From: Thermosynechococcaceae cyanobacterium MS004
Lineage (GTDB): Bacteria > Cyanobacteriota > Cyanobacteriia > Thermosynechococcales > Thermosynechococcaceae
Direction of reading: 5' to 3'
Length of the DNA stretch: 64,000 nucleotides
Assembly: GCA_022402525.1 (NCBI GenBank)
Contig: JAKRSB010000136.1
Span: 1 to 64,000 of the forward strand
The notes under the pieces are model-generated. The model did no database searches. It was not told where the DNA came from and saw nothing but the letters and a program-made list of their open reading frames with translations. Made by a program: the position numbers and the translations under genes. Positions 5,228-36,217 of this stretch are shown in pieces. The number at the start of each line of letters is the position of its first letter. The stretch's first letter is position 1.

Positions 5228-5680
5228 ATGGCCTACACTGCAAATTCTCTTAAGGCCGAGCTAAACGAGCGGGGCTGGCGGCTGACGCCGCAGCGAGAAG
5301 TCATTCTCAATGTGTTCCAGAATTTAGCAGAAGGCCACCATCTCAGCGCGGAAGATCTCTACAACGAACTCCAGAGTCAGGGCGACCCCATTAGTCTTTC
5401 AACGATTTACCGAACGGTGAAGCTGATGGCGCGAATGGGCATTTTACGGGAGCTGGAGTTTGCAGAGGGGCACAAGCACTACGAACTCAACCAGCCCTAT
5501 CCCCATCACCACCATCACCTCATCTGCGTGAAGTGCAATAAAACCATTGAGTTTAAGAGCGACTCTATCTTGAAGCTGGGCTCTAAGACTTCTGAGAAAG
5601 AGGGCTTCCATCTACTAGATTGTCAGCTCTTGATCCACGCTATCTGCCCCCAGTGTCAGCGATCGCTGCTTCCGGGCTAG
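5228..5680 (+). CDS. fur: Ferric uptake regulator, FurA type
   Basis: The 150-residue protein is co-linear with cyanobacterial FurA. It has a winged-helix DNA-binding half ([34 protein letters not shown]) and a metal-binding, dimerising half. Visible ligands include the HHHHH run (93-97), C100-VK-C103 and C140-PQ-C143. It represses iron-uptake and stress genes when loaded with Fe2+, and in cyanobacteria also binds haem and responds to redox state. The palindromic operator immediately upstream predicts autorepression. The stop is followed by a short DUF2256 gene on the same strand. Confidence 0.95.
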
Positions 5681-5723
5681 CGCAATCTATCTTGCCCCAG
5701 TTCACTCCCTCGATTCATTCTCT

Positions 5724-24860: not shown

Positions 24861-26330
24861 ATGTCTTCGGATTCTGATTCTAGTTCGTTGCGCGAAGGTT
24901 CTGGAGCGCCAGAGTCCCTACCCTCCCTTGCCTCAGAGGGCAGTGAAAAACCGCGATCGCCGCTTCAAGCTGGATTTCAAGGTCTATGGCGTCCCTTAAA
25001 GGATGCGGTGCAGACGGCGGGGCAAAGTGTGGGAAAGTCCATTGGCCAATCCTTCCAGGCAGGGCTTCAGGGCATGGGTCAGTGGTTTAGCCCCAACGAA
25101 GCAGAACTTAAGAAGCTGCTGGAGCAGGTACGCCAAAGCCTACCCACCACCGAGGTAATTTTAATTGGCAAGGCACAGACGGGCAAAAGCTCAATTATTC
25201 GCGCCTTGACGGGTGTTTCTGCAGAAATTATTGGGCAAGGGTTTCGCCCCCATACGGCGCACACCCAGCTTTACGCCTATCCCACAGCAGATTTGCCACT
25301 CCTGAATTTTATCGATACTGTGGGACTGGGTGAAGGCTTAAAGGAACCAGCAACTGTGACCGCAGAGCTTCAGGCACTCTTAAGCCGCTCTGTTCCGTCG
25401 GAAGCTTTAGAACAAAGCCCACAACACTTCTCACAACCCAGCCCAGAGAAACCATCATCCCAGAATTTAGCAGCCGTCTCCAGCGCTCAGAAAACAGCCC
25501 AGATTTTGGTGGTGACGCTGAAGGTCACAGACTTTGCGGTAGATGCGGTCTATCGCTTGGTGCGATCGCTGCGTGAAGCACATCCTCAGATTCCCTGCTT
25601 GCTGGTGCTGACCTGTCTCCATGAGCTGTATCCCGCCCATGAAGAAAATCATCCCCAATATCCACCCACCTTTGCTGAAGTCCAACGGGTGGTCAGCACC
25701 CTAGAAACGCAGTTCGATATCTGTGACCGCATGGTTTTGATCGACTTCACGCTAGAAGAAGATGAATTTACGCCCGTCTTTTATGGATTGGAAGCCTTTG
25801 TGGAAGCCCTGTCCACACTGCTCCCCGCAGCGGAAGCACAAGTCATTCATCAGCTTCTAGAACAGGCGGGGGTGAGCGATCGCCTAGGGGATATTTACCG
25901 AGATGCTGGGAGACGGTACATTTTGCCCTTTTCGGTCATGGCGGCAACCTTGGCGGCAGTTCCCTTACCCTTTGCTACTATGCCCGTCCTGACCGCGCTT
26001 CAGGTCACGCTTGTAACGCTCTTGGGTCGACTCTATGGCCAGACCATCACGCCAGCCCAAGCGGGGGGCATTGCCAGCGCGATCGCAGGAGGATTTGGGG
26101 CGCAGGTCATTGGCCGGGAACTGGTGAAGTTTATTCCAGGACTGGGTTCTGTGATTGCAGCCTCTTGGGCAGGAGCCTACACTTGGGCGCTAGGGGAAGG
26201 AGCCTGTGTCTACTTTGGCGATCTGTTGGGCGGAAAAAAACCCGACCCCCAGAACATTCAGCAAGCAATGAAGGATGCCTTTAAGGAAGCTCAAGAGCGC
26301 TTTAGGGAAAGCTTGGTGCCACCTTCGTAG
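24861..26330 (+). CDS. P-loop GTPase with C-terminal DUF697-like membrane domain
   Basis: The 489-residue protein has a Ser/Glu-rich N-terminus, an amphipathic stretch (GQSVGKSIGQSFQAGLQ), and an Era/dynamin-like G domain: Walker A LIGKAQTGKSS (101-111), G3 DTVG (152-155), and LVLTCLHE near the usual G4 position but without NKxD. A C-terminal pair of hydrophobic segments (PFSVMAATLAAVPLPFATMPV; GGIASAIAGGFGAQV) resembles DUF697. It is probably a membrane-associated GTPase of unknown role. The missing NKxD makes strict GTP specificity uncertain. The start is ATG; it is convergent with hicA. Confidence 0.78.
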   Translation: MSSDSDSSSLREGSGAPESLPSLASEGSEKPRSPLQAGFQGLWRPLKDAVQTAGQSVGKSIGQSFQAGLQGMGQWFSPNEAELKKLLEQVRQSLPTTEVILIGKAQTGKSSIIRALTGVSAEIIGQGFRPHTAHTQLYAYPTADLPLLNFIDTVGLGEGLKEPATVTAELQALLSRSVPSEALEQSPQHFSQPSPEKPSSQNLAAVSSAQKTAQILVVTLKVTDFAVDAVYRLVRSLREAHPQIPCLLVLTCLHELYPAHEENHPQYPPTFAEVQRVVSTLETQFDICDRMVLIDFTLEEDEFTPVFYGLEAFVEALSTLLPAAEAQVIHQLLEQAGVSDRLGDIYRDAGRRYILPFSVMAATLAAVPLPFATMPVLTALQVTLVTLLGRLYGQTITPAQAGGIASAIAGGFGAQVIGRELVKFIPGLGSVIAASWAGAYTWALGEGACVYFGDLLGGKKPDPQNIQQAMKDAFKEAQERFRESLVPPS

Positions 26331-28151: not shown

Positions 28152-31100
28152 CTAGCGCCGGAGGAGACTGAGGACGTTATTTTGACGGGCGATCGCTAAA
28201 ATTTTGCCATCGGAGCTAAAGCGAATTGCGTTCACCCCACTTGACGGGTCAGAAAATTGGTTAAAGGGCTGTCCCGCATCGGCCTTCTGCAATTCTACTG
28301 TTGTCCCCGCCGCACTGCCGAGGGTCTGGTCTAGCGGACTAAAGGCCAAACTGCGGATGGGGCTTTTACCCGTCGCGCCAGATCCCGAAGATGAAGGCTG
28401 CGGCAACGCTGGGCTGGGGACAGTGCGCACCAGGGTGCCGTCCCGCAACCTCCATACTCGAATCGTTTGGTCAGCACTACCGCTGGCTAGCAGATCGTCC
28501 CGACTGGTTGCTAAGGTTGTCACCCGATCAGTATGGCCTTTCAAGGTGCGCAAGCGCTGACCGTCTTCAAGATTCCAGAGGGTAATGGCACCATTGACAC
28601 TGCCGCTTGCTAGGGTCTGACCGTCCGTACTGAGGGCGATGGCGCGAACGGCGCTTTTGTCCCCCACGAGCGATCGCACCAATTGACCCGTCGCCGTATT
28701 CCAGACCCGTACCGTCCCATCTTCACTGCCGCTCGCCACCAGGGGACGATTGGGCACAAACCCAATAGACCAAACCGTACTCTCGTGGCCTTCTAGCGTC
28801 CTTAAAAGTTGCCCCGTCGAAAACCGCCAAAGCTTCACGGTCTTATCGCCACCACCGCTCGCCAGCAGCGTGCCATCCGCACTCGCCCCTAAACTCCAGA
28901 TCCGATCTTGATGACCCTTCAGGGTGCGCGCTAGCGTTTTTTGAGACAAATCCCAAAGCTGAATGGTGCCACTCTCTTCCGCACTGGCTAACAGACGATT
29001 CTCTTCACCAAAGGCAAGAGCCTGAACCTTCCCAGCGGTGGGCGATAGCACAGAAGCCTCCACATTTTTCCAGAACAGTCCCGCTTCACAGCGCGCCACA
29101 AGCTGCTGGGTTTCGGGAGAAGACTCCACCCGATTGGGCAGGGGCTGCGCATAGGCAATGCACTGATCGTACTCGCGCTGCTGAAGGAAGGTTTCTAATT
29201 GCGCTAAAGCACGCTTCTTTTCCTGCTGCCGTCGGGCCTCAAAGATAGCGGCGGTGAGCAGTAAGGCCCCCACAGAAATGCCTAAAATTACGGCAATCGG
29301 CGTAACGCGGACGGGCTTGTTCGCATGATCCGCAATATCCGTTGAGGGGCGACTAAGGCCAAGAACTCTCTGAGAAGCCTTCGCTGACGCAGCGCTCAAC
29401 CTCTGTCGTCCTTGAGTCCAGGAGGCGGTTAGCTGAAGCGGTAGCCGATGGAGCAATGACTGACCCCAACGGCTCACAAGCCCAGCAGAGGCAAGAATAC
29501 GGCTTAGTGCAGGCGGCACAAGAGCCACCCAAAGCGTGGTTTGGGCGATCGCAGCCTGAACACGAGGGCGATCGCGGAGCCAAGCCTGCACACCCCCACC
29601 ATGACCCAGGGGCATCAACCCACTCGTCGGCACAAAGGTCTTGGATAGGGGGGCCTGCACCACCGTCAACTGCTGAAGCACCTCAGCCCGAATGGGTGCG
29701 GTATCCGCATCCGTCAAGCCCAGCACATCCTGAATCGTAGCCACCGCCCGACCCACCAAAGAGTGCTCAGCAGTGGTCTGTGTCCGACTGGCCTGTATCC
29801 GATTAGCCTGCATCTGATTGGTCTGCATTTGGTTCAAAAAAGCCGTGGCGTACTGCCGCAGCTTTTGCTGATATTCCTGATACGGCTTCAGCACTTCGGC
29901 CTTAATTCGGATGCAGTCTGCCGCCGCCAGCGCCAAACTTTTCTGAGATTTCTCCAAAATCAACTGGTTGACGAGGGGAATCTGTCCATTTCTGACGCAG
30001 CGCTCAACCTCACGGCGGTACTGAAGCAGGGGAGTCTTGTCAATCTGGGCAATGATCCAGGGAAATTGACCCGCTCGATAGAGCCTAGGTCGGAGCGCCG
30101 GACTCGATAGCTGCACCTTTCGCGTTGCATAGGAATGCCATTCCTCTAAGGACAGAACCCCATCTCCGTTTGTATCCGCAATGCCCGTTGCCAGTCCCTC
30201 AATGAGGTAAGCGGTATAGGCCGATAGACGATGGCCCTTTTGAACCCCCACATGATGAATCGCGGTGGAAGACATTACAACCGTGGTGCCCGATGCCGTG
30301 AGCTGCTGCCTAAACTGCTGCAGCCGATTCTTCCGCGCAGAGTCCCTGGGAATGCCGTCTTCACTCAAGCAGCAGTCTAAAAGCACCACCGGATGCTGCA
30401 CCACTGTATCCTGCAGCACCGCCGCCAAAAAGTCAGCAGAAACGACGGTCGAGCGTACAACTTTATGCTGCGCACCACGGCGGCTGGCTTTTGTCGTTAA
30501 GCACAGCATTCCCTGGCTATCCCAGATGGCGTGACCCGAAAAGTACAGCAGCGCCAAGCCATTGGGCGGACAAGTCGAGAAAAATTGCTCAATTTCCTCG
30601 GCCATCTGCTGGCTATCGGCATTGAGCAGCGTTGTGACGGTATCAAAAGCGCCCAGGTCAGGATGCTCTAAAACCGCCTTGAGAGACTCAATATCTTGAC
30701 TGACCCCCGACAGCGCCTGAACCCCTAACTCACTTTCGCTGACCCCAATGAGCAGCGCCGCCTTTTGAGCAGGCTGGGCTAGGGGCTGTTTGAGGGAGGA
30801 CAAATTGATTTGAGTGGGTGCAGAAAGGCTGCTGTCCACAACCGTTGGGTCGAGTGGTCGCCGCAGTCCAGCCAGTCCCAACGAAGGAGCCATTTCAGGC
30901 GGGGACAGGGTGGCGGCGGCGGGAGCATCCGATAAAGTCAAGGGTGCTGGCAAGGTTTCTGGCGTTTCCGCAGCCGCAGATTGAGGGACAGCATCCGTTT
31001 CCGGGATCAGCAGAAAAAAGTGCAACAGCTTTTCTTGGTACAGGAGCAAACGGCTCCGGGCGCGCACGCTAGAGGGAATCTTGACCCCTGCCTCAAGGGC

Positions 31101-31523
31101 GGGATATTCCCCAGATAAGGGTAGGGCGATCGCCTCTAAAACAGACGTACTTTCTAAGGTTTCAAAGGGTGTGGCGGGGCCTGTTTCAAGGCTGTTAAAA
31201 ATACCGTCTAGCTGGAGTCCGTCTAGATTGTGAGCGGAATAGTAGCACAGGAAATGGGTGATCCAGTCCTCCGGCTCTTGCGGTGCTGGCCGACAGTACA
31301 TCCAGCCAAAGAGCGTTTGGTTGGGCGACAACTGGTAGAGGTAGGCTGCTCTGAGCTTTTGCCCTGCGATCGCCTGGTTTTGCCAGTAGTGATGCACCAC
31401 CCCCTGCATAAAGCTTTGCTGAATCGCCTGGGGGAGGTTTGTACTGGTCAGCATTTTGTTCCCTAGCCCGGGAAAACTTGTGTAAACAAGTTGTTCAACA
31501 AATAGAGACGAAAGCTCGGCCAT
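28152..31523 (-). CDS. Orthocaspase-like protein: N-terminal unknown domain, caspase with EF-hand loop, TM, WD40 repeats
   Basis: The protein has 1,123 residues. Residues 1-115 form a compact unknown domain (VEQLVYTSFPGLG; WITHFLCYYSA) faintly like GAP1-N domains of predicted bacterial conflict systems. A proline-rich linker follows, then a caspase (C14) domain from about 254 to 490 with KAALLIGVSE, His331 (LYFSGHA) and Cys385 (LLDCCLSEDG). A canonical EF-hand loop, DTNGDGVLSLEE (450-461), sits inside the domain and suggests Ca2+ dependence. One TM (VILGISVGALLLTAAIF, about 755-775) separates it from a C-terminal WD40 propeller (about 845-1120, units ending LWDL/LWRF/VWN). Likely a membrane-tethered protease with a propeller scaffold. 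The start is ATG. A 15-bp repeat lies in the linker. Confidence 0.88.
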   Translation of the reverse strand: MAELSSLFVEQLVYTSFPGLGNKMLTSTNLPQAIQQSFMQGVVHHYWQNQAIAGQKLRAAYLYQLSPNQTLFGWMYCRPAPQEPEDWITHFLCYYSAHNLDGLQLDGIFNSLETGPATPFETLESTSVLEAIALPLSGEYPALEAGVKIPSSVRARSRLLLYQEKLLHFFLLIPETDAVPQSAAAETPETLPAPLTLSDAPAAATLSPPEMAPSLGLAGLRRPLDPTVVDSSLSAPTQINLSSLKQPLAQPAQKAALLIGVSESELGVQALSGVSQDIESLKAVLEHPDLGAFDTVTTLLNADSQQMAEEIEQFFSTCPPNGLALLYFSGHAIWDSQGMLCLTTKASRRGAQHKVVRSTVVSADFLAAVLQDTVVQHPVVLLDCCLSEDGIPRDSARKNRLQQFRQQLTASGTTVVMSSTAIHHVGVQKGHRLSAYTAYLIEGLATGIADTNGDGVLSLEEWHSYATRKVQLSSPALRPRLYRAGQFPWIIAQIDKTPLLQYRREVERCVRNGQIPLVNQLILEKSQKSLALAAADCIRIKAEVLKPYQEYQQKLRQYATAFLNQMQTNQMQANRIQASRTQTTAEHSLVGRAVATIQDVLGLTDADTAPIRAEVLQQLTVVQAPLSKTFVPTSGLMPLGHGGGVQAWLRDRPRVQAAIAQTTLWVALVPPALSRILASAGLVSRWGQSLLHRLPLQLTASWTQGRQRLSAASAKASQRVLGLSRPSTDIADHANKPVRVTPIAVILGISVGALLLTAAIFEARRQQEKKRALAQLETFLQQREYDQCIAYAQPLPNRVESSPETQQLVARCEAGLFWKNVEASVLSPTAGKVQALAFGEENRLLASAEESGTIQLWDLSQKTLARTLKGHQDRIWSLGASADGTLLASGGGDKTVKLWRFSTGQLLRTLEGHESTVWSIGFVPNRPLVASGSEDGTVRVWNTATGQLVRSLVGDKSAVRAIALSTDGQTLASGSVNGAITLWNLEDGQRLRTLKGHTDRVTTLATSRDDLLASGSADQTIRVWRLRDGTLVRTVPSPALPQPSSSGSGATGKSPIRSLAFSPLDQTLGSAAGTTVELQKADAGQPFNQFSDPSSGVNAIRFSSDGKILAIARQNNVLSLLRR
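29776..29835 (-). repeat. In-frame 15-bp repeat, 4 copies (Gln-rich)
   Basis: Four 15-bp units encode the NQMQT/NQMQA/NRIQA/SRTQT stretch in the linker after the caspase domain. Confidence 0.88.
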
Positions 31524-35577: not shown

Positions 35578-35967
35578 TCAAGGCGCTTTAACTTCGCAGG
35601 GGGCTAACCCCTCTGCCTTTTTGCAGAATTTTTCATCGAAGGAATAGAGTTCTAGGCAATGTTGGCTTTGGGCTAGATGGAATGCATCGGCAAAGTCTAG
35701 GCCTTGCTGATGCCATTGAAGAATTTGTTGGATCCGGCTTGCATTGGCGAGGAATACGTTGGATAAGCCAAAGAGGTTTCTGAAAGCTTGGCTTATCTCA
35801 CCGAGTTGAAACCGATAGGCAAACCTCAGAACCCATTCGGTTTCAAGAATGACGGTATCTGGAATAAAAATATCTTGAGTTTGGAATAGAAGCAGGCTTT
35901 TTTGATATTGTGGCTCATCATCGCGAACCAGTAGTCGAACCACAATATTAGTATCAACGGCAATCAT
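35578..35967 (-). CDS. vapC: VapC-like PIN-domain toxin ribonuclease
   Basis: This PIN-domain protein of about 129 residues begins MIAVDTNIVVRLLVRDD, with the first acidic active-site residue in AVDTN. Further acidic residues lie in LETEWVLR, LDFADAFH (FADA motif) and FDEKF. VapC toxins cleave tRNA or rRNA. The ATG at 35967 lies inside the end of the antitoxin gene (14-bp overlap), which fixes the start and predicts coupled translation. The longer frame to 35988 is less likely. Confidence 0.88.
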   Translation of the reverse strand: MIAVDTNIVVRLLVRDDEPQYQKSLLLFQTQDIFIPDTVILETEWVLRFAYRFQLGEISQAFRNLFGLSNVFLANASRIQQILQWHQQGLDFADAFHLAQSQHCLELYSFDEKFCKKAEGLAPCEVKAP

Positions 35968-36217
35968 GCCATTGCTCCCGAATGCCAAATTGAATGGCCT
36001 CTTCTAGGTCTTCTAGACGCTTCGGTTCTTCGCTGTACTTTAGACAACCTGCAGCTTGATCGAGCGTTGTTCTCTCAAAAATGCCGTTTGACTTCAGCAA
36101 AATTCCCTCACCGACATCAATGGCAATTAACTCTTGGCCAATTTCCCAATGATGGGCATCTCTCAATGCCTTGGGAATAATGACCTGACCCTTACTAGAC
36201 AAGCGTGTCGTTTTCAT
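35954..36217 (-). CDS. vapB: AbrB/MazE/SpoVT-family antitoxin (VapB)
   Basis: The 87-residue protein has an N-terminal swapped-hairpin DNA-binding domain (TRLSSKGQVIIPKALRDAHH, then GQELIAIDVGEGILLKS) and an acidic C-terminal toxin-wrapping tail (PKRLEDLEEAIQFGI). It neutralises VapC and probably represses the operon. ATG start; first gene of the pair. Confidence 0.9.
   Translation of the reverse strand: MKTTRLSSKGQVIIPKALRDAHHWEIGQELIAIDVGEGILLKSNGIFERTTLDQAAGCLKYSEEPKRLEDLEEAIQFGIREQWHDCR

Follow-up and report, generated by a model that had tools for sequence, protein, structure and literature searches.

A candidate GTPase-gated caspase family of cyanobacteria with a probably uncoupled member in a Thermosynechococcaceae genome

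The 64,000-nucleotide stretch analysed here (the window; contig JAKRSB010000136.1 of Thermosynechococcaceae cyanobacterium MS004) encodes on its minus strand a 1123-residue protein in which an N-terminal domain (N-domain) is joined to an orthocaspase, a transmembrane (TM) segment and a WD40 propeller. The N-domain defines a cyanobacterial family whose genes usually lie beside a gene for a membrane GTPase, a conserved loop of the domain is lost together with that GTPase, and the window copy, which has neither loop nor GTPase, retains an intact catalytic dyad. We favour, with a probability of about 0.58, a GTPase-gated caspase family in which the N-domain, predicted to have a longin fold, would pair with a membrane GTPase of DO-GTPase2-like and Rag-like type. 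In the window protein the loop is destroyed, and no such GTPase was found in its genome; it is therefore most likely a descendant that has become uncoupled.

The window protein and its N-domain

The gene and its parts, all on the minus strand, are as follows.

28152..31523 (-): whole gene, a single open reading frame (ORF) of 1123 aa with an ATG start, stop included; order N-domain, linker, orthocaspase, helical region, TM segment, WD40 propeller
30999..31523 (-): N-domain, residues 1-175, longin-like predicted fold (AlphaFold2 (AF2) model, fold comparison, family searches)
31251..31295 (-): residues 77-91, site of the family loop NDGxDDxGRxxVPYF; the window has CRPAPQEPEDWITHF instead, and Arg85 is Glu
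30774..30998 (-): linker, residues 176-250, poorly conserved
30024..30773 (-): caspase (C14) domain, residues 251-500 (Pfam, NCBIfam, alignment)
30531..30533 (-): catalytic His331 codon (alignment with the dyad columns)
30369..30371 (-): catalytic Cys385 codon (alignment with the dyad columns)
30141..30176 (-): EF-hand-like loop DTNGDGVLSLEE, residues 450-461, common to this caspase group
29241..29297 (-): transmembrane segment, residues 743-761 (hydrophobicity scan)
28155..29033 (-): WD40 propeller, residues 831-1123 (Pfam)

This single ORF and its domain matches bear out the layout given in a preliminary description of the locus (N-domain, caspase, EF-hand-like loop, TM segment, WD40), except that the N-domain, placed there at residues 1-115, extends as a conserved domain to about residue 175. 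The WD40 match has an E value of 3.2e-51, and the hydrophobicity scan gives one clear TM segment (743-761), a second hydrophobic stretch at 666-684 being weaker. The same four parts recur in the Acaryochloris proteins L039, L041 and L064 and in L192 from the window's own genus, so that the architecture is far beyond chance.

Residues 1-175 match no Pfam family. Among 386 cyanobacterial genomes, a protein search and an agreeing profile search place the N-domain in 14 genes of 13 genomes; this count leaves out seven weak protein-search matches (E 1e-4 to 1e-3), the profile search having retained only the 14 strong genes, and two of the seven inspected by eye were amylase-like and pilin-like proteins. 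A scan of GTDB species genomes yielded 31 loci, every one cyanobacterial, although it relied on two peptide patterns that diverged copies escape. In the searches made, the family is thus confined to cyanobacteria. By reading, the 31 relative ORFs comprise 14 with N-domain, TM segment and WD40, three with N-domain, caspase, TM segment and WD40, seven in which the N-domain is joined to a roadblock-like part, two with N-domain, TM segment and periplasmic-binding protein (PBP) part, and five that are short or of another kind. With the window's protein included, 18 of 32 have a WD40 match among the Pfam families listed, and L048 has one to PBP_like_2; Robl_LC7 stays below cut-off in both of the two roadblock-like fusions scanned (of seven). 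The N-domain is an independent module outside the caspase fold: 28 of the 31 relatives bear it without a caspase, and alone it folds confidently in AF2. That it merely extends the caspase fold, one of the outcomes that the preliminary description said would refute its proposal, is contradicted by both results and can practically be set aside.

Separate PBP_like_2 proteins adjoin the N-domain gene in L049 (6784-7854), L063 (8917-9960) and L065 (8683-9771), and they match the PBP part that is fused to the N-domain in L048.

The AF2 model of the N-domain alone, built with 32 sequences, has a mean confidence (pLDDT, predicted local distance difference test) of 88.2 and a strand-helix order of b-b-a-b-b-b-a, which is the order expected of a longin domain. 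In fold comparison, the best Z scores are those of TagF (7.9), a Lokiarchaeal longin (7.8), the Lst4 longin (6.8) and FLCN/FNIP2 chains (6.3-6.5), followed in lower rows by many NPRL, TRAPP, SEDL, Ykt6 and Ragulator chains. Judged by its model, the N-domain looks like a longin-type GTPase partner, although even the best Z stays under 8.

A membrane GTPase beside the N-domain and a loop lost with it

A P-loop GTPase gene adjoins the N-domain gene at 25/31 relative loci. In 21 of them it lies directly upstream in the same orientation; the other four have it downstream, in divergent or convergent orientation, or one gene removed. In L060, from Microcystis, just broken GTPase pieces (5356-5681) stand immediately upstream of the N-domain gene. 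The loci L050, L058, L061, L065 and L066 show no GTPase within the stretch examined; the genomes of L061 and L066 carry one on another contig (G133 and G080, respectively). A C-terminal TM segment is present in 24/25 neighbour GTPases. Pfam DO-GTPase2 (PF19993) matches 18/21 of them at E up to 0.01 and Gtr1_RagA 2/21; among the matches listed, DO-GTPase2 is above cut-off in 2/4. An invariant Glu follows the G3 motif (P127-G128-E129), a feature that section 27 of Kaur et al. (PMC7159879) gives as a hallmark of DO-GTPases. The AF2 model of the GTPase (pLDDT 82.1) compares best with LokiRagO and yeast Gtr (Z 15.4), YcjX (15.3) and RagC (14.4), with Ras-type proteins at 13.5-14; Foldseek alone ranks EF-Tu and KRAS at the top.

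The linkage extends to whole genomes. In the 386-genome sample, strong GTPase matches (E <1e-70 and starting in the G domain, weaker places being incompletely listed) occur in 9/13 genomes with the N-domain vs 0/373 others; matches to the tetratricopeptide repeat (TPR) part of the GTPase alignment alone, which arise in 299/386 genomes, were excluded from the count. Among 29 genomes of the window's family, the GTPase (E <1e-40; G398 has a partial match at 3e-6) is present in 11/14 with the N-domain vs 0/15 others. Fisher tests, which ignore kinship, give 1.5e-15 for the sample and 1.1e-5 for the window's family. The Pfam family DO-GTPase2 as such is broader and occurs in 42/386 genomes, 33 of them above cut-off.

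DO-GTPase/GAP1 systems have been described as "nearly completely absent" from cyanobacteria (Kaur et al. 2020, PMC7159879, section 27). Closely spaced DO-GTPase2 pairs in two cyanobacterial genomes without the N-domain (G091:C2 and G111:C70) count against that statement. At four loci (L047, 6281-8951; L053; L059; L062), the GTPase and N-domain-WD40 genes are directly preceded by a small ORF and a Peptidase_C39 ABC exporter, with an HlyD gene in three of the four (Pfam was run on L047 and L053 only). Exporter, small ORF and HlyD are a peptide export set beside the GTPase switch.

Relatives of the window protein carry the loop NDGxDDxGR between the N-domain strands 69-79 and 87-96 of the AF2 model. 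Its presence was compared in 54 N-domains as the pattern D-[DEQ]-x-[GR]-R, with L163 counted under GTPase elsewhere. The pattern is found in 38/38 copies whose contig also carries the GTPase, in 4/7 whose genome carries it elsewhere (L154, L167 and L192 lack the pattern), in 0/6 without a close GTPase in the genome (the window, L060, L025, L027, L193 and L194) and in 1/3 whose genomes lay outside the GTPase search. In the six GTPase-less copies, strongly conserved cells are kept in 104/114 cases outside the loop vs 19/30 within it, and of the conserved columns Arg85 is retained least often (1/6); L193 retains a GR. Microcystis provides a contrast within one genus, as L054 has both the GTPase and the Arg, whereas L060 and L025 have lost both. 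The p-values for the loop are overstated because the rows are related, and about five separate losses were counted by eye. GTPase and loop have thus been lost together in this family, which points to one directly testable residue. The longin domain of SMCR8 has an arginine finger, Arg147, according to PMC8213707, and by analogy the loop may be the counterpart of the SMCR8 finger loop.

In the N-domain tree, the four caspase fusions included group weakly (support 80/62), and the window branch is long (1.79), which would fit a domain that has lost its partner.

These features suggest how the system could work. The N-domain would be the constant, switch-reading part, and the remainder (WD40, periplasmic-binding, roadblock-like or caspase plus WD40) the variable output or sensor. 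In relatives, the GTPase and the N-domain protein would share a membrane, where the N-domain could read the state of the GTPase and thereby set the output part. The nucleotide state of the GTPase might alter the hold of the membrane on the N-domain and its fused caspase, which would be freed or activated in one GTPase state only, giving gated proteolysis. The loop Arg of D-[DE]-x-G-R would touch the GTPase and may play the part of an arginine finger, like that of the longin GTPase-activating protein (GAP) SMCR8. The roadblock-like fusions fit control by a GTPase. In the window protein, which keeps an intact dyad without reading element or GTPase, control of the caspase would probably fall to the propeller or another partner. 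A bolder version, which we hold only tentatively and at odds well short of even, is that cyanobacteria possess a Rag/Gtr-type membrane GTPase with a longin partner bearing an arginine-finger loop, directly controlling a caspase in one lineage, the longin module being joined to roadblock-like parts as in Asgard archaea; the window protein would then be a natural uncoupled form that lost GTPase and finger together.

The caspase part, and the case for and against GTPase gating

The caspase part of the window protein matches Pfam C14 at E 3.8e-15 (56.6 bits vs a cut-off of 21.4). In an alignment of the window protein with 11 further caspases from cyanobacterial genomes, His331 within SGH (329-331) and Cys385 within DCC (383-385) both fall in the dyad columns, so the dyad named earlier is confirmed as intact in this copy. 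The loop at 450-461 fits the EF-hand pattern Asp1, Asx3, Asp5, Gly6, Glu12, and all 12/12 aligned caspases have such a loop, with Asp at position 1 and Glu at position 12 in every one; 0/12 have His following the catalytic Cys. Loop and missing His are therefore ordinary, being general among these caspases. Both traits had been singled out in the preliminary description; they are truly there in the window protein, yet neither is peculiar to it or to its architecture. NCBIfam NF047832 (EACC1-associated caspase) covers residues 255-470 at E 1.2e-35 with 122.9 bits, which does not reach its cut-off of 140. Between 31524 and 32451, directly upstream of the window gene, there is no minus-strand ORF of at least 80 aa, and no EACC1 gene was identified upstream, no EACC1 model having been run on the window.

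The window genome encodes a second caspase, L002 (G000:C109), of the EACC1-associated type and above cut-off (159.4 bits). The models matching its C-terminal region are ones that we take to be formylglycine-enzyme-like, and a 125-aa ORF just upstream of it has no NCBIfam match.

Twelve distinct caspases carry the N-domain, each of them from either the window's GTDB family or an Acaryochloris record: the window protein, L039, L041, L064, L147, L148, L150, L151, L192, L193, L194 and L154 (L144, L146 and L149 duplicate L064, L041 and L039, respectively, and the frame of L154 is broken). L193 and L194 have no WD40. In all six distinct fusions from Acaryochloris or its genus, the GTPase gene lies 20-23 bp upstream, and an EF-like loop is present in 11/11 N-domain caspases that span the region.

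Several results weigh against GTPase gating. The partner GTPase was found neither at the window locus nor elsewhere in the window genome, a draft of 150 contigs, so the GTPase link foreseen earlier fails at this locus itself and the proposed mechanism does not operate there as in relatives; the absences in genomes generally rest on draft assemblies. L154 and L192 (window's genus), and likewise L167, are without the loop though their genomes carry the GTPase elsewhere. Foldseek gives the N-domain model no match at E <1e-3 (TagF 1.6e-3), SecB, phytochrome/PAS, LuxR-type and a designed protein are mixed into the fold rows, and with Z <8 the longin likeness may be merely a common arrangement. Moreover, the His is kept in 6/12 N-domain caspases and the Cys in 10/12, and since the full dyad is intact in only six (the window protein, L039, L041, L147, L148 and L150), proteolysis may not be the output.

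The losses of His (6/12) and Cys (2/12), with the EF-like loop kept throughout, would suit a pseudoprotease or peptide-binding module in a protein that acts mainly as a membrane scaffold with its propeller. We regard this as rather unlikely, given that the window copy retains both catalytic residues and also the Asp preceding the Cys pair. The same loop could instead be the main switch of a Ca2+-gated caspase with the N-domain as a mere adaptor, as its canonical pattern and invariant end residues would allow. Such gating, read from sequence, appears improbable: the Pfam EF-hand_5 score of 18.1 bits falls short of the 25.9 cut-off, the loop is general to the caspase group rather than a mark of this architecture, and it persists in copies without the catalytic His or Cys.

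An alternative that keeps the GTPase would make the N-domain a diverged GAP1-N and the gene an effector of a DO-GTPase conflict (defence) system. The order of GTPase gene and partner gene, together with the DO-GTPase2 match, is that of the described GAP1 systems, and a short GxLxYTSF-like motif is common to the N-domain and GAP1-N2. The earlier likening of the N-domain to GAP1-N and GTPase-linked systems therefore holds for the GTPase (gene at 25/31 loci, DO-GTPase2 in 18/21) but not for GAP1-N membership by sequence. No Pfam GAP1 match was obtained for any of 14 N-domains, and GAP1-N, -M and -C are missing by Pfam from seven full-length relatives (for the longest, among the best 25 of 63 families). 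The N-domain profile scores -1.0 bits against GAP1-N2 in HMMER, which does not exceed background (48/1247 reported shuffles and 160/618 reported unrelated fragments score as well or better), a weak test in that it used a single distinct GAP1-N2 sequence, the only one found; hhalign of the N-domain with that sequence gives E 0.018, probability 2.5 and 18 columns. PF20013 occurs in 0/117 cyanobacterial genomes, and neither one peptide-pattern scan of IMG/VR nor one plasmid search yielded the N-domain. A GAP1-N origin is thus a serious reading, though one we consider unlikely.

Known systems and further features of the window

The gated family as we propose it resembles the DO-GTPase/GAP1 systems described in PMC7159879 in its DO-GTPase2-like gene upstream of a partner with constant N-domain and variable C-terminal part, in membrane association and in the Glu of the G3 region. 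It differs in that the cyanobacterial set has no GAP1-N/M/C match, the TM segment is C-terminal in the GTPase, and the partners bear WD40, PBP, roadblock-like or caspase parts; the main text of PMC7159879 contains neither "longin" nor "TagF". With the Rag/Gtr GTPases and their longin and roadblock regulators (FLCN-FNIP, GATOR1 and Ragulator; for Asgard archaea, PMC10933270), as far as the available text of these sources goes, the family has in common the predicted fold of the GTPase and, with less certainty, that of the N-domain, besides the roadblock-like fusions and a conserved Arg in the loop, a possible parallel to the Arg147 finger of SMCR8 (PMC8213707). Unlike in those systems, the match in sequence is limited to Gtr1_RagA in 2/21 GTPases, and the finger parallel is by analogy. 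TagF of type VI secretion is the top fold match to the N-domain, yet at ~10% identity; no type VI secretion context was noticed, no search having been aimed at it. The window caspase part resembles the EACC1-associated caspases of NF047832 but scores below their cut-off.

The combination of caspase and WD40 is already known in cyanobacteria: in Table 1 of PMC8283722, WD40 is the commonest accessory domain of orthocaspases (83 proteins). The window protein shares both parts, but its N-domain goes unmentioned in the available text of that paper. N-domain and GTPase link are new against the literature searched, as no mention of either was found in a search largely outside subscription papers. Despite the published near-absence of such systems, cyanobacteria have a set in which a clearly conserved partner domain is combined with varying outputs, a caspase among them. 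If the longin reading is true, a Rag-like GTPase, a longin-type partner and roadblock-like parts would occur together in bacterial operons, and a route would open to asking how bacterial caspases are switched.

Elsewhere in the window, a GTPase-like gene at 24861-26330 (+) was rejected as the partner because it is of a different type, with MMR_HSR1 and weak DUF697 matches; it also matches PADLOC LeoBC at 2.4e-9. At 35578-36217 (-), a small ORF of the AbrB family overlaps an ORF that is PIN-like by eye, and the two are likely a toxin-antitoxin pair.

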